Part shown: in pieces, positions 14,168 to 29,742 of the stretch
How positions within the stretch are numbered: the first letter of the stretch is position 1
Layout of the letters: the number at the start of each line of letters is the position of its first letter
Origin: Clostridia bacterium
Lineage (GTDB): Bacteria; Bacillota; Clostridia; Oscillospirales; Butyricicoccaceae
Direction: 5' to 3'
DNA: 32,459 nucleotides
NCBI GenBank assembly: GCA_017441945.1
Contig: JAFSBG010000035.1
Location: 1 to 32,459 of the forward strand
Made by a program: the position numbers and the translations under genes
Notes under the pieces: model-generated
What the model was told of the DNA's origin: nothing
Databases searched by the model: none
Seen by the model: only the letters and a program-made list of their open reading frames with translations

Positions 14168-14234
14168 TAAAAATTCGGTTACAAATGAGAATTTTCTGTG
14201 ATTATGATATTTTTTTGCATAACATGTCCCCGAA

Positions 14235-14265
14235 TTGATTTTTTGCGGCAATATATAAATATAAT
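14235..14265 (+). promoter_or_regulatory. Possible promoter for the lectin/SLH gene
   Basis: TTGATT at 14235-14240 and TATAAT at 14260-14265, spaced 19 bases, which is longer than optimal. About 25 bases before the start codon. Confidence 0.4.
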
Positions 14266-14290
14266 ACTTTTTATGAAAGAGGGTTTATCT

Positions 14291-15427
14291 ATGAAAAAAC
14301 GCGTACTATCACTTATCATGGTTATCGGCATGATGCTCAGTATGGCTGCTGCGGCAGTCGATTATGCTCCTAAAGCCACAGCAAAGCTGAATGGCAACAC
14401 ATATTATATGTTTGATGAGAGCATGACATGGGACGAAGCAAGAGCATACTGCGAAGCGCTTGACGGCCATCTTGTCACAATCACAAGTGAAGAAGAACAG
14501 AAGCTTGTGGAATCTCTTCTTGAACAGGGCGAAAAGAAGCAGTACTGGATCGGTATGAGAACTGCCGGCGGCGGCAACACATGGATTACAGGTGAGCCTT
14601 GCACATATTCCAACTGGGACAGAGGCGAGCCAAACAACAAGCACAAGACAGACTCCAATGAAGACTATGTTCATATATATAATGTGGCAAATCCTGCAGT
14701 AAGAGGTAGTGAACGTTTCAAGTGGAACGATATGTTCGGCGACAACACATATCCTGGCGAAGAAAACCACTTTGCTCTCAAGTTTGTAGGCTTTATCTGC
14801 GAATGGGAATATGTGCGCTCCTCCTTCGGCTCGGAAATTTCCGGCTGGGCTGAAAAGGAAATTGAAACAGCTTATGACAAGAAGCTTATTCCTGAATCCC
14901 TGGTGGGCAAGGACCTCACTCAGCCTATCACAAGAGCTGAATTTGCCGCTGTTTCCGTAAAGGCTTATGAGGCTATTGCAGATGTAAAGACAAAGGCTCC
15001 TGCTATCGAAAATCCTTTCAGCGACACAGAGGATGAAGACGTGCTCAAGGCCTACGAAATCGGCATCACAACAGGCACAGGCGACGGCACAACATTCTCC
15101 CCTTCCGACCTTCTCAACCGTGAACAGGCTTCCACAATGCTGACACGTGTTTACAAGAAGTGCTTTATGGAAGGCTGGACAATCGAAAAGGATGCTGAGT
15201 TTGTGCTTGAATACGAAAAGCCTGCTCCATTCTCCGATGACGACAAGATTTCCCTGTGGGCAAAGGATTCTGTATACTTTATGGCAGCAAACAAGATAAT
15301 TCAGGGCAGTGAGGGCAAGTTCATGCCAAAGGCAATCACTGACGCTGAAAAGGCTATCGGCTACGCTCAGGCAACACGCGAACAGGCTCTCATCATTGCA
15401 ACAAGAATGGTTGAAAACCTCAAGTAA
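14291..15427 (+). CDS. Secreted C-type lectin-domain protein with three SLH domains
   Basis: 378 aa from ATG 14291 (AGAGGG upstream). Residues 1-22 are a signal peptide. Residues 32-173 form a C-type lectin domain: WDEARAYCEALDGHLVTI, YWIGM, the Ca2+/sugar motif EPN at 113-115, WND at 145-147, and the framework Cys pair C54 and C170. Residues about 180-378 are three S-layer homology domains (SGWAEKEIETAYDKKLI; FSDTEDEDVLKAYEIGITTG; FSDDDKISLWAKDSVYFMA), which bind secondary cell-wall polysaccharide. So this is a cell-wall-bound lectin facing outward. EPN usually goes with mannose/GlcNAc-type ligands in animal lectins; that carry-over is inference. Monocistronic, sharing a terminator with the giant adhesin gene. 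Confidence 0.93.
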   Translation: MKKRVLSLIMVIGMMLSMAAAAVDYAPKATAKLNGNTYYMFDESMTWDEARAYCEALDGHLVTITSEEEQKLVESLLEQGEKKQYWIGMRTAGGGNTWITGEPCTYSNWDRGEPNNKHKTDSNEDYVHIYNVANPAVRGSERFKWNDMFGDNTYPGEENHFALKFVGFICEWEYVRSSFGSEISGWAEKEIETAYDKKLIPESLVGKDLTQPITRAEFAAVSVKAYEAIADVKTKAPAIENPFSDTEDEDVLKAYEIGITTGTGDGTTFSPSDLLNREQASTMLTRVYKKCFMEGWTIEKDAEFVLEYEKPAPFSDDDKISLWAKDSVYFMAANKIIQGSEGKFMPKAITDAEKAIGYAQATREQALIIATRMVENLK

Positions 15428-15483: not shown

Positions 15484-18400
15484 CTAATCTTCGTCTTCTT
15501 CCTTACGCTTGAGCATTGTGCCTGCTGCGATAGCTGCAAGACCGATCATGCAGAAGCCGATGCCGCTGACGCCGCCTGTCTTTGGAAGGTCTGTGAGAGG
15601 GATGTCCTCTTCGATGATCTCTTCTTCAACAGGAGGAGTGAGTGGAACTTCTTCTTCAATGATTTCTTCGAATGGTGCGTAGTAGACGATTACTGTTACA
15701 TCGTTATTGAGAACGCCAGCAACTTCGCCTTCAACGCCTGTCTGTTCAAAGCCTTCAATTTCGACCATTGTTTCGCCGCTTACATCGTATTCGGAACCTT
15801 CAATCATAGAGCCTGTTGTGTAACGGCCGTAGATTTCTTCGCCTGTTTCCTCATTGATGTAAACAACAGTTACCTTGTAGTAATTGTCATCATTTACAGG
15901 TGGCTGAGGTGGGTCCGGAACGTATGGTGGCTCATAAGTATTGACAACTGTGAGAGTGCCGTTGATATTATCCTCTGTGAGAACTGCGTTTTCACCGTAG
16001 GACGCATAATAATTTTCAACTTCTCTTTCAACTGCCTTATATTCGCCGAAAGCATCGACGATGATAGTTTCAGAACCGTTGCCTGCGATACGTACTGTGT
16101 CAACGAGAACGTCGCCGTTTTCTGTTACCATGTAGATATCGATAACAACTGTACCGTTATAAACATTGCCGCTGTAGGACTTTGTGACTGTGATAGTCTT
16201 ATCGTATTCGAACACATTTGTGAATGTGACCGCTGTACCGTTTTCCATATCAACAAGACCATTTGCTTCATTTGTAAGCTCTCCGCCTGTAAATGTTGCA
16301 TCTGCGCCGCCGTTATCAATTTCGATAACTTCGTAGACTGCATCTGCAGGGAGGTCTGCCAATACGAGGCTTTCGCCCGACTTGAGGAAGAATGTGTAGC
16401 CGATGACAACATCGTTTTCAACGATCGGTGTGAGCGCTTCGTTTTCAACGAGGATGACTTCGTCTGCGCTTCTCATTGTCGGGTCGTTTACAGACATAAG
16501 ATGTCTGAGAGCTTCTTCAGCCTCTGCCTTTGCATTTTCAGCATCGGCAACTGCCTTTTCAGCATTTTCGAGGGCTGCAAGAGCTGCTTCGGAGCCATTT
16601 TCGGATGCGAGAGCTTCTGCTTCTTCGAGAGCCTTTTCAGCTTCTTCAATTGGTGTTGCCTGAGCTTCTGTTACATCTTCAAGAGCTGTCTGCTTTTCTG
16701 TTACAGCTGTATTCTTTTCAGCGAGAATTGCTTCTGCTTCAGCAATCTGAGCTTCAAGACCTTCGATGGAAGCCTTGAGTGCGTTGAACGCAGCAAGGTC
16801 TTCTTCGTACTTTGCCTTTGCAGTTACATAAGCTTCATAAGCTGCAACCTTTGCCATGTATGCATCATAAGCTGCCTTTGCTTCGTTGTAAGCGACCATT
16901 GCTGTGTCATACTCAGCCTTGGCTGTATTGTATGCCGCAACTTCTTCGCTTGTATTGTATGCATTGAGGTCTTCTTCATACTTTGCATAGTCTGCATTGT
17001 AGACTGCCATTTCAGCATCGTAAGCTGCCTTTGCGCCTTCGTATGCCGCCGCATCGGCGTTATACTGAGCAACGAGAGCTTCGTGAGCTGTCTTTTCAGC
17101 TTCAAATGCTGCAAGAGCTGTTTCGTATGCTGCATAAGCTGTTTCATAATCCGCAAGAGCATTTGCTATTGTTTCTTCATCTGCGCCTTCTTCAACAGTT
17201 GGCTGAGATGGAGGATTTGGAGCTGTGCCAGTAAATTCGCCCGGAGCTGTTGGCTGAGTTGGGGCAGTTGGCTGAGTTGGAGCAACAGGTGCCACAGGAG
17301 CTGTTGGCTCACTTGGCATTTCTGGCTCTGCCACTGCTTCTTCAGCTGGAGCTTCAACGAGAGCCGGCTCAACAGGAGCTACTGCATTAGTTGCCTTTTC
17401 GAGCTGTTCATTGAGAGCATTAAGGCTTTCTTCTGCCGCTACCTTTTCTGCGATAGCCATTTCGAGCTCGAGCATTGCTTCTTCGATAGGCTTCTTTGCA
17501 AGAGCGAGATTTGCTTCTGCGTTGACTACTTCTGCCATGATAGCATCGTATTCAGCCTTCTTGAGTTCTTGTTCAGCCTGTGCATTTTCGAGAGCCGCTG
17601 TGAGAGCGTCAAGCTCTGCCTGAGCTGCTTCGATATTGCCGTCTGTTACTTCGTTATATCTCATATGGGAGAGATAGAGAGCGAATTCATATACTGCTTC
17701 AGGATCGAAATCACCTTCTGCAACCTTGTTGATAACAAGGGAGCCGCCTTCACGGCGTGTGTTGATGATGTTGATTTCAGCTTCAAAGTTTTCGCCGCCT
17801 ACATGAACATCGCCTTCACCGCTGACGGTATAATCGAAGTATGTAAGGTCTTCGATATATTCGCCATTGCTGAGGAGAACTTCTGTTACTGTGTACTTGC
17901 CCCATGCGAGGTCTGTAAGTACGACAGGAGCGATAGCCTTTTCGCCTTCATTTTCTGTGATAACAGCGCTTACATATTCAACGGATTCATCAGGATAAGT
18001 TACCTTAAAGTGGAACTCTGTGCCGATTTCTTCGCTTTCAATGTTTGCTACCGACTTGTTGATTGTGAGCGAGCCGCTCTTGTGTGTTGTGTAAATTACA
18101 TTGATAACATTTTCAGAGACATTTGCGCCTACTGTAAGCGGTGCATTTTCGATGTCAGCTTCTTCTGCATAACTTGCAGGGAGATACTTGAAGACTTCGA
18201 ATGTGTAGAGAGAAATTGCCATCATTGGCACAGGATATGTGTCAGGGTAAACCATATCGCCCAATGTGACGTTGTTTGTCACGTCGGAGCCGAGGAGATT
18301 TTCATCGATAGCAGAATCCTTGTAGTAATTTACTGTGTACTGGAGAGCATTGCTTCTTCTGTAAACCACATTGATGACGTTGCCTTCAACATTGATTACA

Positions 18401-21400
18401 GGGTATGCGCCCTCGATGCCTTCCGCCGCAAGATAGCCTTCAGGGAGGAATGCATTGAGCCAGTTTTCACCGAGGTCTGCTGTTACCATAGCTTCATCGA
18501 GCTGTGTGCCGTAGAGCTTGGAATTACCTGTATTTGTGCCGAGGAAATTGCCTTCTTCAACAGAATCCTTGTAGTAGTTTACGATGTAATCGTAGGAGTT
18601 TCTTACATAATATACATCAGCAACGTTATTTTCCGCTGCAGCTGTAATTGTGATTGGGAAACCTACTTCCTTTTCAAGTCTGTAACCACGCTTTACCTTG
18701 TCAGGATATGTTTCGATGGAGTTGCCGAATACTGCAGAGCCTGTTACATCTTCTTGTGCATCGTAAACACCATCATAGTGATATCTGATAGTATAGCCGT
18801 AGTTGTTCTTTACATAGTAGATGTGAGCCACATTTGCAGTCTCATCTGCCGTAATTGTAAGAGGCATATTTACTTCATCATCAAGAGTGTAACCATCAAT
18901 AATCTTGTCTGGATATTCACTGATGATTTCTTCAAAGAGGCCTGTGCCTGTTACATCTTCACCTTCAGCATATACACCGTCATAGTAATACTTGACTGTG
19001 TAGTCGAAGTTATCTCTTACATAGTATACTCTGATAATATTGTTTTCAGCGATTTCTGTAATTGTAAGAGGTGTGCCTTCTACCTTTTCAAATCTATAAC
19101 CGACTTCAGGCTTTTCTGCGTATGTGCTGATTGTTTCGCCAAATACAGCTTCAATTCTTTCTGTTTTGGAGTCATCCTTTACGTTATCATAGTAGTATTC
19201 TACTGTATAACCGAAGGAATCCTTTACATAATAGACATTGATGACATTTTCAGAAGCATTTGCAGAAATTGTGAGAGGAATGCCATCTGCTCTATCGAGC
19301 TTATAGCCTGTCTTGTTCTTGTCAGCATAGCCTGTGATTTTATCAGCAAACTTAGCTGTAAAAGAATCTGTCTTTGACTCATCCTTTACGTTGTCATAGT
19401 AGTAATTTACTGTGTAACCGAAGTTACCTCTTACATAGTAAACCCTGATGACATTTTCAGATGCATTCGCAGAGATCGTGAGAGGAGCGTTGTCCTTTTC
19501 CCAAATATAACCTGTGATATTCTTATCTTCGTATGTCTCGATTACCGATTTGTACTCTGCTGTGAAAGAATCTGTCTTGGAATCGTCCTTTACGCCGTCA
19601 TAATAGTACTCTACTGTATAGCCAAAGGAATCCTTTACATAGATAACATTTACAATGTTCTTTTCCGGATCTGCAGTAACTGTACCGTCGTCAACATTTT
19701 CCACAGTCGCTTCGGTCTTGTAGCCCGTAGGAACATTTTCTGCTACATAATAAGGGATTTCTGTGCCAAACTCAGCTGAGCCTGTTTCGGTTTTAAAGAG
19801 ATTATCAGGTGCAATGGAATCCTTGTAATAATTTACTGTGTAAGTATAAGTATCCTTTGCATAGTAAACCTTGATGACATTTTCAGATTCATTTGCGGAG
19901 ATTGTAAGAGGGAAGTTTTCTGTTCCAACCAACTTATAGCCCGGCTTGATCTTATCTGTGTATGTTTCGATCTTTTCGCCAAACTTAGCTGTGCCGCTTT
20001 CAGTTGCTCCGTTGTCAATTACATTGTCATAGTAATATTCAACTGTGTAACCAAAATCATCTCTTACATAATATACATCAGCTATGTTGCCGCTTGTCTT
20101 GATAGTCATCGGGAAGCCCTCTGTCTTATCAAGTCTATAACCTGTCTTTATCTTGTCAGGATACTCATTGATAGTGCTGCCAAACTCTGCAGAGCCTGTA
20201 ACATCTGCACTCTCATCGTGAATACCATCATAATGATATCTGATAGTATAGCCAAAGTTGTCCTTTACATAATAGACATTGATGACATTATTTTCAGCCT
20301 TTTCAGATACTGTGAGAGGGAGGTTTTCTGTCTTATCAAACTTATAACCTTCTTCAGGCTTATCTGTGTAAGTTTTAATCACATCACCGTAAGCTGCTGA
20401 TTTTTCTTCTGTCTTGGATTCATCCATCTTGCCGTCATAGTAGTAATTTACTGTGTAATTGAAGTTATCCTTTACATAGTAGATCTTGATGACATTTTCG
20501 CCTGTTGTGATTGTGAGTGGGAGGTTTTCTTCCTTCTGAAGCTTATAGCCTGTTGGGCACTTATTTTCGTAATCATCGATAACTGCATTCAGAGGAGCCT
20601 TGCCTGTTTCATCCCAATCCTGATGAACGCCGTCAACATAGTATTCCACAGTATAATCGTACTGTTTTACTACGTAATTGAACTCTGCGACATAAACGTT
20701 TTTGCCGTCTGTTGTGAAGTTTACAGCATTTTCAGATACCAGCTCATAATTATTGCCGCCGTCAAATGCATTTACAACTGCATTTCTGCCAGGCTTCCAC
20801 TGGTTTCTGTTTCCAGCATCAGGATTGCCGACAGCTTCCTGTGCGAAAATAACAGCTTCTTCCTTAGCCGCCACAACATTGCCGTTTGCATCGATGTACT
20901 TGCCATCTTCGTTGACACGGTAACCAATTCTGTAAACCTGGCTGTATGTACCTGTTACAGATGGAACATTGAACTCACCTGTGCGCTTTACATCGCCGAT
21001 GGTGTATTCCATAGTAGTTGTTCCGTTTGTTTTATAGACTTCATTCTGGATAAAGCCTTCTGCTTCAACGTCAAGCTCAACGATGTAAGAAAGTGTGGAT
21101 TCTTCATTCTCACTTACATTTGGAGACCATGTGAATGTGTTGCCTTCAAAGCTGATAGTACCGTTGGAAACCTTGTAGTTACCCTTGTTCTGGATTTCGC
21201 CTGTAACCTTTGTGGTTTCACCGATGTCAATGTAGCTGCCCATTGGGTCACTTACGCCGCCCGAAACAGTTTCGTCGATGGATTCACCGATTGCCTTGAA
21301 TACATCGGTAAGGTCACTGTTTGTTGTGTAAGTGTAAGTCTTATCCTTTGTATTTGTTGTTGCAATGGACTTGAGAGTTTCCCTGGCGTCATTTGAAGCA

Positions 21401-22386
21401 TTGCTTGTAATATACGATACTGTGTAAATTTCAGCACCTGTACCCTTGATAAGTCCTGCTTCATAGATAGCTGCATCACTGCTGTTGATTCTGATATCAT
21501 CAGTGTAAATGAGAGTCTTTGTGTTGTCACTCTTAAGAACACCAAGCGCATAGCCATTATAGCTATCATCACTACCGTCACCGGAACGCATAGAATAATC
21601 GTAGCCTGTTATAGCCGTCATATCCTTTGATGAATCAATTCTACTCCAGCTTGCATAGTAACCCCATTCTGGTGTGTACCAGTTAAGATTACCCTTGTCA
21701 CCATCCGAATAATTATTGTTTTTTCTGTCAGAACGTGAGCCGCTCCACTGAGCATTGATAATTGGGATAGCGTTGTAAGTAGGCTTACCGTCAGAGATAA
21801 GAACTACAAACTTCTTGGATGCATTGCTTTCTGCAAGCTTAATTCTTGCCTGATACAAACCATCCTGTGTGTTTGTGCCGCCTGTACAATTTTCTGGAAT
21901 TGCATTCTTGGCAGCCTGTCTCTCGGCAGATGTATAGAACTTTGTTGCCGATGTAGCAGCATAGTTATACTCTACAAGAGATACACGATTGGATTTGCCT
22001 TCTGCCAGTACGATGTCAATAAAGGCTTCAGCTGCTTCTTCGAGCGCTTCCATGCCTCTGTCGCCCATACTGCCGCTCTTGTCCATTACAAGGACGATGT
22101 CAGCGCCCGGAGTTGTTGTCTTGGCGCCTTTGCCGCGTACAGTAAGAGTGATTTCGTACTGATTAGGAACACTTGTAGGTTTCGCTTCTTTGGTGAGAAT
22201 CACCTGACCGTCACTGAGTGTTGCATTCTTATCGGCATTTTTGTCAACGAGTCCATCTTTGCCGTAAATCGCCGACGGAGGTGTTAAATCTGCTTCCTCT
22301 GCGGCAAACGACGGCATTGGAAACATACCGCATACCATAAGAACTGCGAGCATCAGGCTGGTCATTCTTTTCAGCTTGATCTTCAT
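15484..22386 (-). CDS. Giant LPKTG-anchored surface adhesin (2300 aa): vWA, MucBP-like repeats, Cna-B-like domains, coiled-coil stalk
   Basis: Signal peptide at 1-28. Residues about 94-390 are a vWA domain with the MIDAS motif DKSGS (102-106), a TGGTNTQDG loop and a VVLISDG strand. Residues about 576-1433 hold some twelve MucBP-like repeats of 60-70 aa (YTVEYYYDNV ... NVIxVYYVKD). A Cna-B-like domain follows at about 1436-1540. A second one begins GSLVINKVAEGDF near 1546, breaks after YEFALYLSHMRYN, and resumes near 1966 (GYTFFLKSGESLVLADL). The roughly 385 residues between are Ala/Glu-rich coiled coil around a proline-rich stretch (about 1667-1742). Another Cna-B-like and one MucBP-like domain precede LPKTGG (15571-15588), a membrane helix and a charged tail. 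AAGGGG lies upstream of ATG; no clear promoter. Likely host or mucus adhesion. The sortase at 27073 is the probable anchoring enzyme. Confidence 0.94.
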   Translation of the reverse strand: MKIKLKRMTSLMLAVLMVCGMFPMPSFAAEEADLTPPSAIYGKDGLVDKNADKNATLSDGQVILTKEAKPTSVPNQYEITLTVRGKGAKTTTPGADIVLVMDKSGSMGDRGMEALEEAAEAFIDIVLAEGKSNRVSLVEYNYAATSATKFYTSAERQAAKNAIPENCTGGTNTQDGLYQARIKLAESNASKKFVVLISDGKPTYNAIPIINAQWSGSRSDRKNNNYSDGDKGNLNWYTPEWGYYASWSRIDSSKDMTAITGYDYSMRSGDGSDDSYNGYALGVLKSDNTKTLIYTDDIRINSSDAAIYEAGLIKGTGAEIYTVSYITSNASNDARETLKSIATTNTKDKTYTYTTNSDLTDVFKAIGESIDETVSGGVSDPMGSYIDIGETTKVTGEIQNKGNYKVSNGTISFEGNTFTWSPNVSENEESTLSYIVELDVEAEGFIQNEVYKTNGTTTMEYTIGDVKRTGEFNVPSVTGTYSQVYRIGYRVNEDGKYIDANGNVVAAKEEAVIFAQEAVGNPDAGNRNQWKPGRNAVVNAFDGGNNYELVSENAVNFTTDGKNVYVAEFNYVVKQYDYTVEYYVDGVHQDWDETGKAPLNAVIDDYENKCPTGYKLQKEENLPLTITTGENVIKIYYVKDNFNYTVNYYYDGKMDESKTEEKSAAYGDVIKTYTDKPEEGYKFDKTENLPLTVSEKAENNVINVYYVKDNFGYTIRYHYDGIHDESADVTGSAEFGSTINEYPDKIKTGYRLDKTEGFPMTIKTSGNIADVYYVRDDFGYTVEYYYDNVIDNGATESGTAKFGEKIETYTDKIKPGYKLVGTENFPLTISANESENVIKVYYAKDTYTYTVNYYKDSIAPDNLFKTETGSAEFGTEIPYYVAENVPTGYKTEATVENVDDGTVTADPEKNIVNVIYVKDSFGYTVEYYYDGVKDDSKTDSFTAEYKSVIETYEDKNITGYIWEKDNAPLTISANASENVIRVYYVRGNFGYTVNYYYDNVKDESKTDSFTAKFADKITGYADKNKTGYKLDRADGIPLTISANASENVINVYYVKDSFGYTVEYYYDNVKDDSKTERIEAVFGETISTYAEKPEVGYRFEKVEGTPLTITEIAENNIIRVYYVRDNFDYTVKYYYDGVYAEGEDVTGTGLFEEIISEYPDKIIDGYTLDDEVNMPLTITADETANVAHIYYVKNNYGYTIRYHYDGVYDAQEDVTGSAVFGNSIETYPDKVKRGYRLEKEVGFPITITAAAENNVADVYYVRNSYDYIVNYYKDSVEEGNFLGTNTGNSKLYGTQLDEAMVTADLGENWLNAFLPEGYLAAEGIEGAYPVINVEGNVINVVYRRSNALQYTVNYYKDSAIDENLLGSDVTNNVTLGDMVYPDTYPVPMMAISLYTFEVFKYLPASYAEEADIENAPLTVGANVSENVINVIYTTHKSGSLTINKSVANIESEEIGTEFHFKVTYPDESVEYVSAVITENEGEKAIAPVVLTDLAWGKYTVTEVLLSNGEYIEDLTYFDYTVSGEGDVHVGGENFEAEINIINTRREGGSLVINKVAEGDFDPEAVYEFALYLSHMRYNEVTDGNIEAAQAELDALTAALENAQAEQELKKAEYDAIMAEVVNAEANLALAKKPIEEAMLELEMAIAEKVAAEESLNALNEQLEKATNAVAPVEPALVEAPAEEAVAEPEMPSEPTAPVAPVAPTQPTAPTQPTAPGEFTGTAPNPPSQPTVEEGADEETIANALADYETAYAAYETALAAFEAEKTAHEALVAQYNADAAAYEGAKAAYDAEMAVYNADYAKYEEDLNAYNTSEEVAAYNTAKAEYDTAMVAYNEAKAAYDAYMAKVAAYEAYVTAKAKYEEDLAAFNALKASIEGLEAQIAEAEAILAEKNTAVTEKQTALEDVTEAQATPIEEAEKALEEAEALASENGSEAALAALENAEKAVADAENAKAEAEEALRHLMSVNDPTMRSADEVILVENEALTPIVENDVVIGYTFFLKSGESLVLADLPADAVYEVIEIDNGGADATFTGGELTNEANGLVDMENGTAVTFTNVFEYDKTITVTKSYSGNVYNGTVVIDIYMVTENGDVLVDTVRIAGNGSETIIVDAFGEYKAVEREVENYYASYGENAVLTEDNINGTLTVVNTYEPPYVPDPPQPPVNDDNYYKVTVVYINEETGEEIYGRYTTGSMIEGSEYDVSGETMVEIEGFEQTGVEGEVAGVLNNDVTVIVYYAPFEEIIEEEVPLTPPVEEEIIEEDIPLTDLPKTGGVSGIGFCMIGLAAIAAGTMLKRKEEDED
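18085..20661 (-). repeat. Coding tandem repeat array (about 12 MucBP-like units)
   Basis: Units of roughly 180-200 bases each encode Y-T-V-x-Y-Y-Y-D then 40 variable residues then N-V-I-x-V-Y-Y-V-K-D. Some units are near-identical in DNA, for example the stretches around 19191-19231 and 19601-19641, which share CAAAGGAATCCTTTACATA-like sequence. Two sub-types recur: YTIRYHYDG units (third and tenth) and VNYYKDS units (fifth, eleventh, twelfth). This suggests duplication of blocks rather than of single units. Confidence 0.85.
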
Positions 22387-22543: not shown

Positions 22544-23602
22544 TTAACCCACCATTCGTGCCATTGCATCGAAATTGAATGAGTGTGTGAGAGCATTCTC
22601 TCTTGTGATTTTGCCCTGTCGATAAAGCTCCATAAGGCTGGAATCCATTGTCTTCATGCCCTGTGCCATGCCGGAATGCATTATCGATTCGAGCTGGTGC
22701 ATTTTTGATTCTCTGATGAGATTTCGCACAGCGTTTGTCGCCGTCATGACTTCGAATGCAGGCACTCTGCCGCCGTCCTTGCCCTGCACAAGTTGCTGGG
22801 AAACGACAGCCTGCAGCACCATTGAAAGCTGTACACGCACCTGATTCTGCTGATTTGGCGGGAAGGCATCGATTATTCTGTCGATGGCATTTGCCGCGCC
22901 CAGTGTATGTAATGTGGACAGTACGAGATGGCCCGTTTCTGCCGCTGTGATAGCTATATTTATTGTTTCTGCATCGCGCATTTCACCGATGAAAATGACG
23001 TCAGGCGACTGGCGGAGGGCAGACTTTAACCCCGTCACATAGTCCTGAGTGTCGATGGAAATTTCACGCTGGCTGACTATGCATCTGTTATGGCGGTGGA
23101 GGAATTCGATAGGGTCCTCAAGTGTCATGATGTGACCTTCACGAGTTTTGTTGATGCGGTCGATGAGGCAGGCGAGAGTTGTGCTCTTGCCCGAGCCTGC
23201 AGGACCTGTCACAAGGACAAGGCCGCCTGTTTTCTTGCCCAAATCCATTACAGACTCAGGAATACCAAGCTTTTTATAGTCCGGCAGATCAAAATGCACC
23301 ACGCGCATAATTACAGCAAGCGAGCCGCGCTGTTTATAGAGATTGACTCTGAAACGTCCTTCGCCGGGGAGAGAGAAGGAAAAATCGTCGTCACCTTCTT
23401 CGATGTGGCGCTCCATTTCACCTCTGTTTGCAAGGTCATAGATTCCCTTTACATATTCGAGAGTGTGTTCAGGCTTGAGAGTCTCATCACTCTGTTTGAT
23501 AAGGCAGCCGTCGATTTTGAAGCCGACAGGATAGCCTGCCACAAGGAAGATGTCGGATGCGTTTTTCGCTATTGCATTTTTAAGGATTTCTTCAAGAATC
23601 AT
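22544..23602 (-). CDS. pilT: Type IV pilus twitching ATPase PilT
   Basis: 352 aa from ATG 23602, one base after the stop of the upstream gene; a longer frame from 23650 would overlap that gene and is not needed by homology. It has all PilT boxes: N-terminal ASDIFLVAGYPVGFKIDG, Walker A GPAGSGKST (133-141), Asp box TLEDPIEFLH (160-169), Walker B SPDVIFIGEMRD (199-210), His box TGHLVLSTLHT (223-233). It also has AVRNLIRE, corresponding to the PilT-specific AIRNLIRE. The hexamer at the pilus base hydrolyses ATP to retract pili. It is the last gene of a six-gene pilus-like operon. No PilB extension ATPase lies nearby, so either PilB is encoded elsewhere or this enzyme drives the machine alone. 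Confidence 0.95.
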   Translation of the reverse strand: MILEEILKNAIAKNASDIFLVAGYPVGFKIDGCLIKQSDETLKPEHTLEYVKGIYDLANRGEMERHIEEGDDDFSFSLPGEGRFRVNLYKQRGSLAVIMRVVHFDLPDYKKLGIPESVMDLGKKTGGLVLVTGPAGSGKSTTLACLIDRINKTREGHIMTLEDPIEFLHRHNRCIVSQREISIDTQDYVTGLKSALRQSPDVIFIGEMRDAETINIAITAAETGHLVLSTLHTLGAANAIDRIIDAFPPNQQNQVRVQLSMVLQAVVSQQLVQGKDGGRVPAFEVMTATNAVRNLIRESKMHQLESIMHSGMAQGMKTMDSSLMELYRQGKITRENALTHSFNFDAMARMVG

Positions 23603-23603
23603 T

Positions 23604-23960
23604 TTAATTTCCGTCCCATAATTCAAGGATATTTCCGCCGTATTCACCACTTACATTGGATACAAGGCGGTATTCTTCTATTTCAAGCTGATTATTTTCC
23701 ATTTTTGCGCTGACATGGAGAGTTGCGCTTTCGCCCGCCACCTCAAACTGAGCATTTTCGCCGTTTTCCAGCTGACTCAGCCTTGTCTGCGCCTCTCTGT
23801 CGAGGGAATAATATTCCATCATTGTCTTTTCCGCCCTGTTTGTCAAAGCGAGGTCGGCATTCGCCGTTGAGATTGCAAGTGCGGCAAAGGATGCCAGCAT
23901 TATCACTGTGAAAACCGTAAAGATGAGGGCGGCGCCGATTGGGATTCGGGTGTTTTTCAT
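23604..23960 (-). CDS. Small pilin-like membrane protein (118 aa)
   Basis: Start at ATG 23960 with GGGAGGG eight bases upstream, overlapping the TGA of the previous gene as ATGA. Residues 6-29 are one hydrophobic helix (IPIGAALIFTVFTVIMLASF), then an Ala/Glu-rich helix with SLDREAQTRLSQLE, then a short beta-rich end. This is the shape of a minor pilin or PilX-like assembly protein but without a prepilin peptidase site. I do not recognise the family. Position between a prepilin-like gene and pilT supports a role in the same pilus system. Confidence 0.8.
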   Translation of the reverse strand: MKNTRIPIGAALIFTVFTVIMLASFAALAISTANADLALTNRAEKTMMEYYSLDREAQTRLSQLENGENAQFEVAGESATLHVSAKMENNQLEIEEYRLVSNVSGEYGGNILELWDGN

Positions 23961-24340
23961 CGTACTGCCCTCCCGAAATCTATGGCGCACAGCTTTTCTG
24001 AGCCTGCCTCTAAAAATGGATAAGCCTCTGTTTTCACGCAGGAAGCCACTCCTTCGTAAAGTCCGTCTTTTTCATTGCCTGTGACATTGAGGGCGAAAAC
24101 AGCATCATTTTCGTCACATTCATTCCAGTTTTCATCGAAATACTGTGTAAAATCTTTATTTTCTGCCATTTCTATGGCATTCTGCACCTTGTACATTGCG
24201 TTGGTCTTATCAGATGACAGGATGCCTGTATATCGTGCCGAAAGAAAGATGCCAAGCGTCACCACCCCGGCAAAAGCCAGTATCATTATTGAAATTATCA
24301 TTTCCAGCAGTGGGGCTGCCGCTCTTTCTCTTATTTTCAT
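23957..24340 (-). CDS. Prepilin-like protein with non-canonical cleavage site (127 aa)
   Basis: A short basic leader MKIRERA, then APLLEMIISIMILAFAGVV. This is a prepilin-type N-terminus with Glu at position +5 of the presumed mature chain, but with Ala instead of Gly at -1. It is followed by a soluble domain with cysteines near the C-terminus (ASCVKTEAY, EKLCAIDFG), which could form a pilin disulfide loop. The start shares one base with the preceding stop (TGATG), so it is translationally coupled. Probably a minor pilin or pseudopilin. The prepilin call rests on the N-terminal pattern and the context. Confidence 0.82.
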   Translation of the reverse strand: MKIRERAAAPLLEMIISIMILAFAGVVTLGIFLSARYTGILSSDKTNAMYKVQNAIEMAENKDFTQYFDENWNECDENDAVFALNVTGNEKDGLYEGVASCVKTEAYPFLEAGSEKLCAIDFGRAVR

Positions 24341-24768
24341 CAGTTCACCTTTTGTGCGAAATCAAGGGGATAAACCCTGCCGTTTATGCCGATTTCTATG
24401 TAAATATCGCCGTTTTCTTCCTTTGCTTCAAAGGAATCGGCAGTTATTATTTCATCGCCGTACTCTGCTTCAAATTCGGCATCGGCTTCGCCGAAATATT
24501 CTGTAAGACTGCCATCGTGATAGTAAATACGGCTTACGCAGTCGTCTTCGGCTATGGTTATCTGTCCGTTTTCGATTTTTACGTCGTCCGCCTGACGCAT
24601 TTTTGTGGAAATATATGACAGCGCTGTGCGGACCGAATGGTTTTCCTCCATGCCTGAGCTGATATTTTCATAGACTGATGCGGTTGTCACTGTCAGCGCA
24701 AGGGTGAATATTGCAAATGTCAGGTAGAGCACAAGAAGGAAGATGCCGTGGGAATGTCTGTTATTCAT
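24340..24768 (-). CDS. DUF4860-like pilus-operon protein (142 aa)
   Basis: One N-terminal membrane helix (residues 9-31, IFLLVLYLTFAIFTLALTV). Next is SVRTALSYISTKMRQADDV, then a beta-rich part with DGSLTEYFGE and YIEIGINGRVYPLDF. This fits my memory of the DUF4860 family, found in clostridial type IV pilus-like operons. Probably a minor pilin-like component, without a classical prepilin cleavage site. Overlaps the upstream gene by 8 bases and touches the next. Confidence 0.8.
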   Translation of the reverse strand: MNNRHSHGIFLLVLYLTFAIFTLALTVTTASVYENISSGMEENHSVRTALSYISTKMRQADDVKIENGQITIAEDDCVSRIYYHDGSLTEYFGEADAEFEAEYGDEIITADSFEAKEENGDIYIEIGINGRVYPLDFAQKVN

Positions 24769-25045
24769 TGGGAAGCACCGTTATTTCAGGCAGGATATTG
24801 GAAGCGAAGGCGTCATAAATGACGGTGTACTTGCTTTCGTCTATCATAAGCCCGTAGTTTTCTCTTAAATATTCAATGTCGGCGGGATAAAAGCCTTCGA
24901 TGGCATAGCAGGAGACGGCGCTTTTATGCACAGCCTGTGCAAGATTTTCCAGCCTTTCGTCGTTCAGGCTGTCGTCGGCATTGTTTATCATTATCATAAC
25001 TGCGATGACGAGTATCACCGCCAGAATTACCGTTTTTCTGTTCAT
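24761..25045 (-). CDS. Pseudopilin-like small protein (94 aa)
   Basis: N-terminal helix MNRKTVILAVILVIAVMIMI. Then NLAQAVHKSAVSCYAIEGFY and PADIEYLRENYGL, which resembles the helix and loop of GspG-like pseudopilins (a Cys-Tyr-x-x-Glu-Gly-x-Tyr-Pro pattern). There is no Gly or Glu+5 prepilin site, so it may be a membrane-anchored variant. It sits four bases after pilC and overlaps the DUF4860-like gene by 8 bases. The pilus role is inferred from context and fold pattern. Confidence 0.78.
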   Translation of the reverse strand: MNRKTVILAVILVIAVMIMINNADDSLNDERLENLAQAVHKSAVSCYAIEGFYPADIEYLRENYGLMIDESKYTVIYDAFASNILPEITVLPNE

Positions 25046-25048
25046 TTT

Positions 25049-26095
25049 CTAACCTATTGCCGCCATAACGCCTGTCAGCGGAAGGAGGACGGATACGAGA
25101 ATCATACCGACCACAAGGGCGATTATGCCGACGAGAATCGGCTCTACAGCGCCGATAAGAGAGCTTACGCTGTCTTCAAGCTCATCTGCGTAGATGCCCG
25201 AAAGTCTTTTCATGGCTTCGTCCAGATTGCCGGTTTTCATACCGATGCCCGCCATACGGGAAAACATTGCAGGGAAAACTCCCACCTTTTCAAGCAGCGC
25301 GCCGAAGCTGATGCCACTGTATATATCGTTTTTCACAGCGTTTATCTTTTCGCGCACAACCGAGTTTTCCATCACATCGGATGCCATTGTCATTGCTTCA
25401 TCGAGGCAGGAGCCTGATGAGAGGGCGAGAGACATTGCTGAAGCAAAGCGTACCGCCGAACTTTTTGATACTATATCTCTGATAAAAGGCATTTTTATCG
25501 CTGTTTTTTCAAGCTTCACTTTGCCTTTTTCGCTTTTTCCGTAAATAATCACGAATACTGCCGCTGCCATTACCGCAAGAATGATAACGAGGGCAAAGAT
25601 GCCTGCCGCCTTGCCGAAATTCATCATTGATTCGGCTGCTGACGAGACCGAGCCGCCCAGCTGGGCGAATATTCGCGCAAACATCGGAAGGACTTTGAAA
25701 ACAAGGACCGAAACCACGAGAGACATTATGAAAAATAGTGCCGCAGGGTATGTTACCGCCTGTTTAAGGCTGTTTTTAATGCGTTTTTCCTTGTCATAAT
25801 AGCTTGATAGAGATAAAAACACATCTTCAAGGCGTCCTGATGCTTCGCCTAAACCCACCATACTGCAGACATATTCAGGGAAGCAATCTGTGTCACGGAG
25901 GCTTTTTTCAAGGGTATTCTGCATCATGATGCTTTCGCCGACGCTTGAAAAGACCTGCTGTATTCTCTTATTCTTCATATCGCTCATACCGGCGGAAAGA
26001 CCGTCATACAGCGGCACGCCTGCTTTGAGCAGATATGCTGCCTGCATACAGAATATTGAGATCTCTTCCTCAGTGAGTTGGTTTTTATTCTTCAT
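25049..26095 (-). CDS. pilC: Type IV pilus/type II secretion inner-membrane platform protein PilC (GspF family)
   Basis: 348 aa from ATG 26095, preceded by GAGGAAATA. Longer frames from GTG or from 26182 would run through the promoter. It has the GspF plan of two homologous cytoplasmic domains. The first begins FCMQAAYLLKAGVPLYDGL and contains MVGLGEASGRLEDVF. The second begins FASAMSLALSSGSCLDEAM and contains MAGIGMKTGNLDEAM. Three membrane segments lie at about 130-150, 180-205 and 320-345. It is the membrane platform that connects the pilus ATPase to pilin insertion. First gene of the operon ending in pilT. Confidence 0.94.
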   Translation of the reverse strand: MKNKNQLTEEEISIFCMQAAYLLKAGVPLYDGLSAGMSDMKNKRIQQVFSSVGESIMMQNTLEKSLRDTDCFPEYVCSMVGLGEASGRLEDVFLSLSSYYDKEKRIKNSLKQAVTYPAALFFIMSLVVSVLVFKVLPMFARIFAQLGGSVSSAAESMMNFGKAAGIFALVIILAVMAAAVFVIIYGKSEKGKVKLEKTAIKMPFIRDIVSKSSAVRFASAMSLALSSGSCLDEAMTMASDVMENSVVREKINAVKNDIYSGISFGALLEKVGVFPAMFSRMAGIGMKTGNLDEAMKRLSGIYADELEDSVSSLIGAVEPILVGIIALVVGMILVSVLLPLTGVMAAIG

Positions 26096-26152
26096 TATTT
26101 CCTCGATGTTTTCCTTGCACGACACCCCTTTCCTGATATATGGGAAGGAGAA

Positions 26153-26182
26153 AGTATATATTGGAAAGGGGATTATGTGCAA
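26153..26182 (-). promoter_or_regulatory. Promoter of the pilC-pilT operon
   Basis: On the minus strand, TTGCAC (26182-26177), 18-base spacer, TATACT (26158-26153). Confidence 0.75.
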
Positions 26183-26211
26183 TTTAATTTATGATGACCG
26201 TATGTTAAATA

Positions 26212-27063
26212 CTAATATACGTACTTGATGCTGTAGTTTGTGCCGTTGCCGATGAACTTTGCGATGGAATCGCTGTTCTTTGCGGAAGATGTGAATGTAG
26301 GGTCCATTGTTGTCCACTTGACACCGTCAAAGTAGAGCTTGCCTGTCTTTATCCAGCCGATATCTTCGATATAGACTTCGTTCCATGCGTGGTAGCCGTT
26401 ATTAGGAGCAACATAGCCTGTGACAAGCTTTGTCGGGATGCCGAGAGAGCGTGTCATTGCCGCCATAACTGCCGCATAGTCAAAGCAGATGCCCTTCTTC
26501 GCCGCAACCACCATATCAACGTCAGGAAGGTAGCCGCTCTGTACTGTTTTTGCCTTGTATGTATCGTATTTCATGGCGTTTACAACGTAACCGTATACGA
26601 TATCGACCTTTTCAAGGTCTGTCTTGGCATTTTTTGTGATCTCACGGGCTGTTTTTACAACATTGGAGCTTTCGGAATAATTTACATACTGGCTGCTGTG
26701 GAGAAACGGGGAATGTGGGTTTTCCATCTTCACATCAACATTGAATGTGTTGAGCACGCTGTACTTTGTGCCCGTTGTATTGCGGAGGACACGTAGTCTG
26801 TACTGACCGTCGCCCATCTGGAATGGGTAAACTTCGCTTTCGCCGTTGTTTTTAAGGTCGTATGTATAACGCTGTGTGCCTTTTTCCACCATGACCTTTA
26901 TGCGTTTTTCTGTGCCGCCGTTGTAGCTGGCTGTGAAATAGCCGTCCTTCATTGTGGAAACGTCGATGACCGACTTGTTGGATTTCTTTACAGTTGCCGC
27001 CGCACCTGCCGTCATTGTAAACAGCGTTGCTATAAGCAGCATGATCGATACTAATTTTTTCAT
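26212..27063 (-). CDS. Secreted transglutaminase-like cysteine protease-fold protein
   Basis: 283 aa with a signal peptide at 1-22. The N-terminal part (to about 115) is a beta domain. Residues about 130-283 are a transglutaminase-like core with the complete triad: C193 in KKGICFDYAAVMAAM, H225 in YHAWNEVYIE and D254 in TMDPTF. It acts outside the cell, as a peptidase or amide-forming enzyme on cell-wall or surface protein substrates; the exact reaction is unknown. AAGGAG lies upstream of ATG. It starts 9 bases after the sortase stop, so both are one operon. Pairing with a sortase suggests work on surface proteins, but that is inference. Confidence 0.92.
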   Translation of the reverse strand: MKKLVSIMLLIATLFTMTAGAAATVKKSNKSVIDVSTMKDGYFTASYNGGTEKRIKVMVEKGTQRYTYDLKNNGESEVYPFQMGDGQYRLRVLRNTTGTKYSVLNTFNVDVKMENPHSPFLHSSQYVNYSESSNVVKTAREITKNAKTDLEKVDIVYGYVVNAMKYDTYKAKTVQSGYLPDVDMVVAAKKGICFDYAAVMAAMTRSLGIPTKLVTGYVAPNNGYHAWNEVYIEDIGWIKTGKLYFDGVKWTTMDPTFTSSAKNSDSIAKFIGNGTNYSIKYVY

Positions 27064-27072
27064 AATTTCTCC

Positions 27073-27882
27073 TTATCTCTGTACGATATCGCTGAGCACT
27101 GCACGGACAATGATGCGCTTTTCGCTGGTGCCTTTCGGATGGCATGATGTCAGAATAAGCATCTGCTCTTCGCCTTCTTTAAGCAGGCTCCAGTCGTTTT
27201 TTTCAACGATATTTGTGTCTTTGTAGTCGTAGACATATATCTTATCTTCAAAATATATCCTGAGTTTATCCCCTTCGCGGATTTTGTCTATGCTGTAAAA
27301 CCATGCGCCATAGACATCGCGGTGGGCGGCTATGATGACATTGCCTTCCCCTTCGCAAGGCAGGCGGGAAGTTTCATAAAGTCCCGGCGCTTTTTTGAGG
27401 GCGGCAAGGCTTGTGCCGTTGACAATTCTTGATCTGACACCCATACGCGGTACAACGAGCCCCATATCATAGCTTTGGTAGCCGCTTCTTTCGGAATAAT
27501 CCACAAGTTTCACCGTATCAAACACAGGAACGAGCTTCTTTTCCTTTGGTTTTTCCTCAGTGGCGGCTGTAGTTTCTTCAGTTGTATTTTCAGTCGGAGT
27601 TTCCACAAGGGGGATGTCCTCTGTCGGCTCTTCTCTTTCAAGTCCCGGGTCGGCATTGCTCGATATCAGCGACTGACCTCGTCTGAGAGCTTCCGGCAAA
27701 TCGTCATAGGAGAGGAAATCATCGTCCATAGTCACGTTTTCGTCTGCCATATTTTCGTACCAAAAGCTATAGAGCTGCTGATAAACTCTTCCCGAGCAGT
27801 TTATCCAGAGAAAGCAGACTATGAGAAGAACTCCCGAAACGATGAGGATGTTTCCGATGATATTTTTCGTTCTGTTTTTCAT
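27073..27882 (-). CDS. Sortase (class D/E-like transpeptidase)
   Basis: 269 aa. N-terminal membrane helix at about 9-29, then an extended acidic Thr/Glu/Pro linker (residues 45-115) and a sortase barrel. Catalytic residues visible are H187 in IIAAHRDVYG, C247 in LILTSCHPKG and R256 in SEKRIIVRA. It cleaves LPxTG-type signals between Thr and Gly and joins the protein to the peptidoglycan precursor. Nearby candidate substrates are LPKTGG at 15571-15588 and the thioester adhesin LPSTGG. The long linker places the catalytic domain away from the membrane. CAGGG lies upstream of ATG. First gene of an operon with the transglutaminase-like protein. Confidence 0.93.
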   Translation of the reverse strand: MKNRTKNIIGNILIVSGVLLIVCFLWINCSGRVYQQLYSFWYENMADENVTMDDDFLSYDDLPEALRRGQSLISSNADPGLEREEPTEDIPLVETPTENTTEETTAATEEKPKEKKLVPVFDTVKLVDYSERSGYQSYDMGLVVPRMGVRSRIVNGTSLAALKKAPGLYETSRLPCEGEGNVIIAAHRDVYGAWFYSIDKIREGDKLRIYFEDKIYVYDYKDTNIVEKNDWSLLKEGEEQMLILTSCHPKGTSEKRIIVRAVLSDIVQR

Positions 27883-27944
27883 ATTCCCTGCTTCGCAATT
27901 TTAATTCGGTCACATATACAGGCGCAATTTGCCTATAAAAATAA

Positions 27945-27986
27945 AAGCTGTGACTATATTATAGTATAATAGTCACAGCTTGTCAA
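27945..27986 (-). promoter_or_regulatory. Consensus promoter inside an inverted repeat, upstream of the sortase operon
   Basis: On the minus strand TTGACA (27986-27981), exactly 17 bases, TATAAT (27963-27958): a perfect SigA promoter. The spacer and -10 are bracketed by AAGCTGTGACTAT (27945-27957) and ATAGTCACAGCTT (27969-27981), 13-base perfect arms. The arms would let a dimeric regulator block or tune it. On the minus strand the hairpin is followed by TTATTTTTAT, so it could also end transcription of the 28042-28500 gene. Confidence 0.75.
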
Positions 27987-28041
27987 GCATTTTGGTCATA
28001 AAATATTATTTTATGACTTTTTTATTTAATTTTCTGTTGCT

Positions 28042-28500
28042 TTACCATTTAGCCAGCTCACCGTTATCGGCAGCTTCATTCATAAGCTTCATAAGTTCCA
28101 GCTCACTTCTGAAGCGCTGGGTAACACCCTTTTCCACCCACTGCACAGTGCCCTGCCATGTGGCATTCTGTCTGAACTGCACCTGCACGATAAATGTCGC
28201 CTTATCGCCCTGTGGCTCAGGCTGGGAGTCTATCTTTCTTTCTTCCATATATGCCTTCCTCTTTTCATCATTATTCCTGTTTGCGCCAAAAAAACTTCGG
28301 TTTTCATGGGATGCCTGAGGGAAATTGCAGTAATCGAACACATATTCAAGCACTTTCACCATATCTCCGATGCCTGAAACGGCAAAGCCTGTCTTTTCTG
28401 TGCCGATATAAAGTCTGCCTTTGTAATCATAGTCATCCATGCTGTCAAGGCAGAACACAGAGCGGACTGCCGCGCTGGTGTACTGTGGCTTTTTAACCAT
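28042..28500 (-). CDS. Small protein linked to the BTAD regulator (152 aa), unknown
   Basis: Cytosolic, no signal or membrane segment. The N-terminal part is SAAVRSVFCLDSMDDYDYKG then LYIGTEKTGFAVSGIGDMV. The C-terminal part is FIVQVQFRQNATWQGTVQWV then TQRFRSELELMKLMNEA. I recall the latter as a conserved motif in clostridial proteins encoded beside BTAD/SARP regulators; function unknown. It starts 12 bases after the regulator stop, with AAGGGGG upstream, so the two genes are co-transcribed. It could be a sensor or partner of the regulator. Confidence 0.8.
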   Translation of the reverse strand: MVKKPQYTSAAVRSVFCLDSMDDYDYKGRLYIGTEKTGFAVSGIGDMVKVLEYVFDYCNFPQASHENRSFFGANRNNDEKRKAYMEERKIDSQPEPQGDKATFIVQVQFRQNATWQGTVQWVEKGVTQRFRSELELMKLMNEAADNGELAKW

Positions 28501-28512
28501 AATAACGCCCCC

Positions 28513-29712
28513 TTAAACAGCAGGCTCTATCGGTGTGACCTTACATTCAAGTGTCACAACGCTGCCCTTATAAACTTCGCTGAAGGCTTTGCGGATACGT
28601 TTTACGATGATATCGCTGTTTTCGTAAGTGACTGTCGGCAGCATAACGATATACTGGGATGGGCTGTAACGGGAGACCACGTCGCCGCGTCTGAGACTGC
28701 CCACAAGGACATCTCTTAGAAGCTCCATCATCTGTTCATTCTTATCCTGCGAAAGACCTCCGCCCGAAGCGGATGAAACTGTGAAGAGAGCCACGAAAAT
28801 CGACTGTCCGCTGCGTTCGAGAGTTCTTGCCTCTCTGCGGTAGACGCTTTTGAAAACCTCGTATTCGCAATAGAACGCGCCGTGAATACCGTCGCCTTCA
28901 GGCTTTTCACGCAAATCTTCCTTGATATTGAGGATATCGGCTTCTATAGCCTTTACACCTCTTACGATTTCGTTGTAAATCGAGCGAAGCTCTTCAGACG
29001 GAATGACGCCCAGCTCACTGTAGAAAAGGTCGTTGACATATTCGTAATACGCCATAGCTTCCTTCTTCTTGTCCATTGCGAAAAGCGCGCGCATTTTTGC
29101 GATATGGGAGCTTTCAACAAACGGGTCTATCTTTGCGGCTTTGGATGCCACAAGGTCTATCTCCTCATATCTGCCGTCCTTTTTCAGTATCTCGCAGCAT
29201 TTATTTACGCTGTCGAAGAAGATATTCTTATACTTTACAGCAAGAGGCACCACCCATTTTTCATAGCTGAAAGATGCGAGGAAATCGCCTCTGTAAAGCT
29301 GGATAACATCGTTGTAATTTTCGGCAGTAGGATCATTTTCCGCGTTGATATAGGCTTTTTCAAGCTCCTCAATGTCGATTATACATTCAATCTGGTTATT
29401 CCAGCGGCAGATACCGCGTTTATTGATGATATACTCGCCGTTTTCACCTCTGCCGACGGCATCGAGAAGGTTTCGCAGACGGTAAACAAGATTCTTCAGG
29501 GCGTTGTTAGGATTATCAATTCCATCTTCCCAGAGAATGTCCACAAGCTCTTCCGTTGTGACCTCGCGGTGACGGTTTGTCAGCAGGTATTTGAGCAGCA
29601 GCCAGACCTGCTTTGTACGGCTCTTTTCGTCTGTCAGCACATTTCCATCATATTCCATGGAAAATGCGCCCAGCATATTTATTTTTATCGGTTGTCTTCT
29701 TATCTCTGCCAT
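28513..29712 (-). CDS. SARP/BTAD transcription regulator with degenerate GGDEF-like domain
   Basis: 399 aa from ATG 29712 (GGAGG four bases upstream). Residues about 7-100 are an OmpR-type winged helix as in SARP proteins (INMLGAFSMEYDGNVL, then WLLLKYLLTNRHREV and NALKNLVYRLRNLL). Residues about 108-250 are a bacterial transcriptional activator domain of helical repeats (YRGDFLASFSYEKWV, FYSELGVIPSEELRSIY). Residues about 280-392 look like a GGDEF domain: a strand at FVALFTV, then LRRGDVVSRYSPSQYIVMLP, where RYSPSQY replaces the usual R-x-GGDEF. It therefore cannot make cyclic di-GMP but might bind nucleotides or dimerise. Operon with the 152-aa protein, divergent from the thioester adhesin. 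Probably controls surface genes. Confidence 0.9.
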   Translation of the reverse strand: MAEIRRQPIKINMLGAFSMEYDGNVLTDEKSRTKQVWLLLKYLLTNRHREVTTEELVDILWEDGIDNPNNALKNLVYRLRNLLDAVGRGENGEYIINKRGICRWNNQIECIIDIEELEKAYINAENDPTAENYNDVIQLYRGDFLASFSYEKWVVPLAVKYKNIFFDSVNKCCEILKKDGRYEEIDLVASKAAKIDPFVESSHIAKMRALFAMDKKKEAMAYYEYVNDLFYSELGVIPSEELRSIYNEIVRGVKAIEADILNIKEDLREKPEGDGIHGAFYCEYEVFKSVYRREARTLERSGQSIFVALFTVSSASGGGLSQDKNEQMMELLRDVLVGSLRRGDVVSRYSPSQYIVMLPTVTYENSDIIVKRIRKAFSEVYKGSVVTLECKVTPIEPAV

Positions 29713-29742
29713 AAGACCTCCATCCGGTAACAAGTTTTTTCT

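Follow-up and report, generated by a model that had tools for sequence, protein, structure and literature searches.

We found that a 2300-residue cell-wall adhesin of a gut bacterium, encoded in the window (the whole 32,459-nucleotide stretch of DNA analysed) carries what appears to be a single DUF7601 (CnaB-like) domain, split in two by a long insert of helical and proline-rich sequence. The best explanation, and in our judgment probably the right one, is that the insert forms a hairpin stalk, in which a helix is zipped onto a polyproline II (PPII) strand and the base is stapled by an isopeptide bond of the host domain.

The adhesin starts with a signal-like segment, which is followed by a VWA domain, a GBS104-like Ig domain and a series of repeats; its C-terminal part consists of beta domains and then the LPKTG motif. 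With its VWA domain, GBS104-like Ig domain and sorting signal, the ORF has the features by which VWA adhesins of the pilus-tip type are recognised. The coordinates of all the features are given in Table 1.

Table 1. Features of the adhesin and of its split domain (positions are those of the window)
Feature	Residues	Position	Strand	Basis
ORF, LPKTG-anchored VWA cell-wall adhesin	2300 aa	15484..22386	(-)	
VWA domain	96-206	21769..22101	(-)	Pfam PF00092, E 8e-17
GBS104-like Ig domain	375-477	20956..21264	(-)	Pfam PF21426, E 3.8e-18
Uninterrupted sibling DUF7601-like domain	1438-1547	17746..18075	(-)	PF24547, E 0.0011, below curated cut-off; custom profile
Split DUF7601 domain, putative first half	1548-1578	17653..17745	(-)	Custom profile; shuffles; AF2
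Predicted isopeptide lysine, first flank	Lys1554	17725..17727	(-)	K in 84/85 aligned rows; published DUF7601 triad
Predicted helix 1	1585-1668 (~84 residues)	17383..17634	(-)	Two AF2 runs
Proline-rich segment	1671-1729	17200..17376	(-)	17 Pro, ten at exact spacing 3
Helix 2, aromatic-heptad half	1747-1867	16786..17148	(-)	Aromatic heptads
Helix 2, C-terminal half	1868-1966	16489..16785	(-)	No aromatics but H1962; AF2
Split DUF7601 domain, putative second half	1994-2059	16210..16407	(-)	PF24547, E 1e-7 alone; custom profile; six AF2 strands
Predicted catalytic glutamate, second flank	Glu2022	16321..16323	(-)	E in 85/85 rows
Predicted isopeptide asparagine, second flank	Asn2057	16216..16218	(-)	N in 84/85 rows
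CnaB-like beta domain after the split domain	2063-2152	15931..16200	(-)	Weak custom-profile match
LPKTG sorting motif	2267-2271	15574..15588	(-)	Sequence; NF033073 and PF00746 below cut-off

The first-pass annotation had placed the insert inside one Cna-B-like domain, and the profile comparisons bore this out. The first flank starts at 1548 with GSLVINK and reaches YEFALYLSHMRYN at 1578; in the second flank, GYTFFLKSG can be read from 1996. Against PF24547, the second flank scored 33 bits alone and 35.1 bits when joined to the first, past the curated cut-off of 27. The joined flanks matched DUF7601 at E 2.3e-8, with the match on the second half, and matched DUF5979 from end to end at a score below the cut-off of that family. 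Because a Pfam search with the short first flank alone gave no match, we built custom host-domain profiles from intact relatives (13 domains, later 82). On the full protein, the 13-domain profile laid residues 1548-1587 on its positions 1-40 and residues 1996-2057 on positions 60-126; with the 82-domain profile, the first flank corresponded to positions 1-66 and the second to 59-117, both halves being present. The first flank scored 7.5 bits against the host-domain profile, a value not attained in 2000 shuffles or by any of 400 other segments taken from the adhesin. When the uncut protein was aligned by MAFFT with 84 intact domains, all 84 were laid across both flanks. These sequence comparisons support the assignment of residues 1548-1578 and about 1994-2059 to a single DUF7601 domain, one half in each stretch.

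AlphaFold2 (AF2), run on an 85-row alignment, predicted two strands (1548-1558 and 1565-1574), a helix at 1585-1668, a helix at 1737-1965 with short breaks and then six strands. The strands in both flanks were predicted confidently (pLDDT mostly >80 there; pTM 0.38), but this alignment lays intact domains over both flanks, and the confidence in the host domain is not independent of the split. The top Foldseek matches were CnaB pilin domains including Spy0125, with E of about 1e-3. The first 35 of them align only 64-96 columns, and most of the DUF7601 score comes from the second flank alone, as might be expected if the flanks were separate domains, one truncated and one complete, with a long helical and proline-rich spacer between them in line with the adhesin. 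We consider such an arrangement very improbable: the profile gave complementary halves and not the two separate complete domains that the first-pass annotation had taken as the contrary outcome, the first flank alone has the conserved Lys, and the same complementary split occurs in other proteins.

The predicted isopeptide triad of DUF7601 is Lys, Glu and Asn according to a published survey, which also describes CnaB folds as tolerant of loop insertions (PMC12617251). In the split domain, the candidate triad residues are divided between the flanks. The Lys-Glu spacing is 468 as compared with 62-108 in intact domains, whereas the Glu-Asn spacing of 35 is ordinary (28-60 in intact domains); therefore, the insertion sits between Lys and Glu. 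The loop after the second strand is naturally 12-56 residues long in intact domains. A bond between Lys1554 and Asn2057, if formed, would close the base of the insert.

The order of a helix, a proline-rich stretch and a longer helix, which had been proposed earlier, was recovered in two AF2 runs. The single-sequence run gave a poor fold (pLDDT 47) and was used for its helices alone, which agree with those of the 85-row run. The earlier helix lengths of about 80 and over 200 residues also stood (about 84 and about 230 residues are now predicted), but the gap of about 385 residues did not, as N1578 and G1996 are separated by 417 residues.

Periodicities within the insert can be read directly from its residues. 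We observed 21 aromatics at heptad spacing in residues 1747-1867, making 15 i,i+7 pairs, and a run of ten prolines exactly three apart in residues 1671-1729; neither was matched in 20,000 shuffles, although both statistics were picked after the sequence had been seen. The period-3 power over the whole proline segment is weak (217 of 5000 shuffles reach it) because the proline register breaks. The hydrophobic heptad of helix 1 was reached by 8 of 2000 shuffles, whereas in the C-terminal half of helix 2 the hydrophobic heptad is not significant (384 of 2000); support for the pairing of this half with helix 1 is therefore weak.

The aromatic helix and the proline stretch would also match in length, at 18.1 and 18.3 nm. 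For a protein of A-V-P layout from the same class, the corresponding values were 51.8 and 50.5 nm; the agreement is poorer in a third protein (14.2 versus 19.2 nm). In all three proteins the boundaries were drawn by hand, and they were set after the sequence had been seen.

In antigen I/II (SpaP A/P), the heptad tyrosines interlock with PxxP pockets (review, PMC7732690). The likeness to this adhesin noted in the first-pass annotation held up: the insert has a long Ala-rich helix bearing Tyr heptads, a PxxP polyproline stretch of equal length, and a tblastn match (E 6e-5) to an A region of AgI/II type. It differs in its helix-P-A order (P before A), in having no tip domain, with the proposed hairpin closed at the tip, and in being nested, as an adhesin stalk, in a DUF7601 loop. 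The V domain that lies between A and P in antigen I/II is absent from the insert, where only about 17 residues separate the last Pro from the first Tyr, and no AgI/II Pfam domain was detected in the full protein or in the insert.

Two antigen I/II-like layouts were noted elsewhere. In the same class, L180/L191 (G398:C278) has a Tyr-heptad helix of ~345 residues, a beta segment and ~163 Pro-rich residues, an A-V-P-like layout in a protein cut by the contig end. In L184/L190 (G622:C7), the order of helix, globular part and Pro-rich part resembles A-V-P.

The domain could be split and the insert still not be zipped: it might consist of two independent coiled-coil segments joined by a flexible Pro-rich linker, and perhaps associate with its counterpart in another molecule. 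Linkers rich in proline and helices rich in alanine occur widely, both Pro-rich linkers and permease coiled coils are among the weak matches, and AF2 is unsure over about 1672-1712. We nevertheless regard this arrangement as rather unlikely, in view of the ten-proline run and of the exact heptad aromatics, which are found only in that half of helix 2 that equals the proline stretch in length.

For the zipped hairpin, we propose the following geometry. The insert of ~400 residues would interrupt DUF7601 in the variable loop that follows the second strand, leaving and re-entering the host domain at neighbouring strands. Helix 1 would run outward from the host domain, the Pro-rich stretch would continue outward as a PPII strand, and the chain would then turn. 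On the return, the aromatic half of helix 2 would pack along the PxxP strand in the manner of antigen I/II; the remainder would run against helix 1. A Lys1554-Asn2057 isopeptide bond, catalysed by Glu2022, may staple the host sheet, so that the base resists opening by force or proteolysis. Such a hairpin, plausibly projecting sideways from the adhesin, would reach about 31-33 nm and may provide the sortase-anchored protein with a side arm or spacer, possibly with an adhesive role.

Next, we looked for relatives of the insert. At recognisable similarity, it was found in none of the genomes searched (60 relatives, 345 of the order and 398 of the phylum). Among genomes of the order, the apparent homologs proved to be permease coiled coils and Pro-rich linkers and were rejected as relatives. 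The ortholog in RGIG7261 is 64% identical over the first 500 residues; its contig stops short of the insert.

Other inserts at the same loop, for which the first-pass annotation had proposed a search, were indeed present. Scanning the fetched DUF7601 loci for complementary halves, we observed three split DUF7601 domains in G642, with inserts of about 670-955 residues; the loci were picked from listed matches in partly read genomes, and their counts give no frequency. The G642 proteins share with the adhesin the host domain, the loop and a large nested insert, but here the insert consists of DUF285 leucine-rich repeats (3 of 3), together with List-Bact repeats in 2 of 3. The phylum search yielded a related domain in G1085 with a helix-stemmed insert of about 230 residues, and relatives in its genus, g595 (G1153, G1156), carry comparable inserts, including a 55% identical ortholog. 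These share the host-domain subfamily, the loop and the helix-like entry and exit, but their inserts are about 220-240 residues long, with non-helical sequence between helix-like stems that were judged by sequence alone. An apparent split of 1438 with 1996 in P0001 was spurious, as it was the sibling domain that had been paired there; we did not accept the weakest candidates (L131, L090 and L132). One DUF7601 match (L158, G715:C30) lies inside an open frame of 13,291 residues.

The G642 and g595 inserts support the view that the DUF7601 loop is permissive. Whether this loop, which follows the second strand, serves generally as a display socket, into which unrelated modules such as leucine-rich repeats, helix-stemmed heads and alpha/polyproline stalks have been inserted repeatedly, each with its base held by the isopeptide bond of the host, is in our estimate evenly balanced.

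Insertion into a CnaB loop is already known from a few pilins. Spy0125 (Cpa), like the adhesin described here, has a CnaB-type isopeptide domain with a large insertion between the bond-forming residues, and RrgA is a CnaA-like counterpart (PMC12617251). The inserts of Spy0125 and RrgA are usually folded adhesion or isopeptide domains, whereas the insert of the adhesin would be an alpha-helix/polyproline hairpin with no recognised head domain. It is this alpha/polyproline stalk that would be new; in the open-access literature searched, we found no description of such an insert in a CnaB loop. One domain family would accommodate three or more insert types, unrelated to one another, at a single loop, and one of these types would be an antigen I/II-like stalk in a bacterium other than a streptococcus. 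The split between Lys and the Glu-Asn pair offers a sequence rule for finding side-displayed modules that family searches overlook, the first half being too short to give a score. A covalently stapled scaffold of this kind also suggests itself for protein design.

The adhesin adjoins a T2SSE/T2SSF/sortase/transglutaminase-like gene set, the whole lying downstream of a BTAD regulator. The only ortholog found (RGIG7261, a Clostridia MAG from water buffalo cecum; L087) has an identical neighbouring gene order, and this conservation suggests a T2SSE-T2SSF-sortase pilus-like locus that includes the adhesin. The upstream genes, on the same strand at 22544-29733, encode T2SSE, T2SSF, DUF4860, sortase, transglutaminase-like and BTAD-regulator proteins. 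Another LPXTG protein, encoded at 30050-32440, has thioester (TED), GramPos_pilinD1 and SpaA domains, and beside the adhesin, at 14198-15427, lies a gene whose product combines a C-type lectin domain with S-layer homology repeats.
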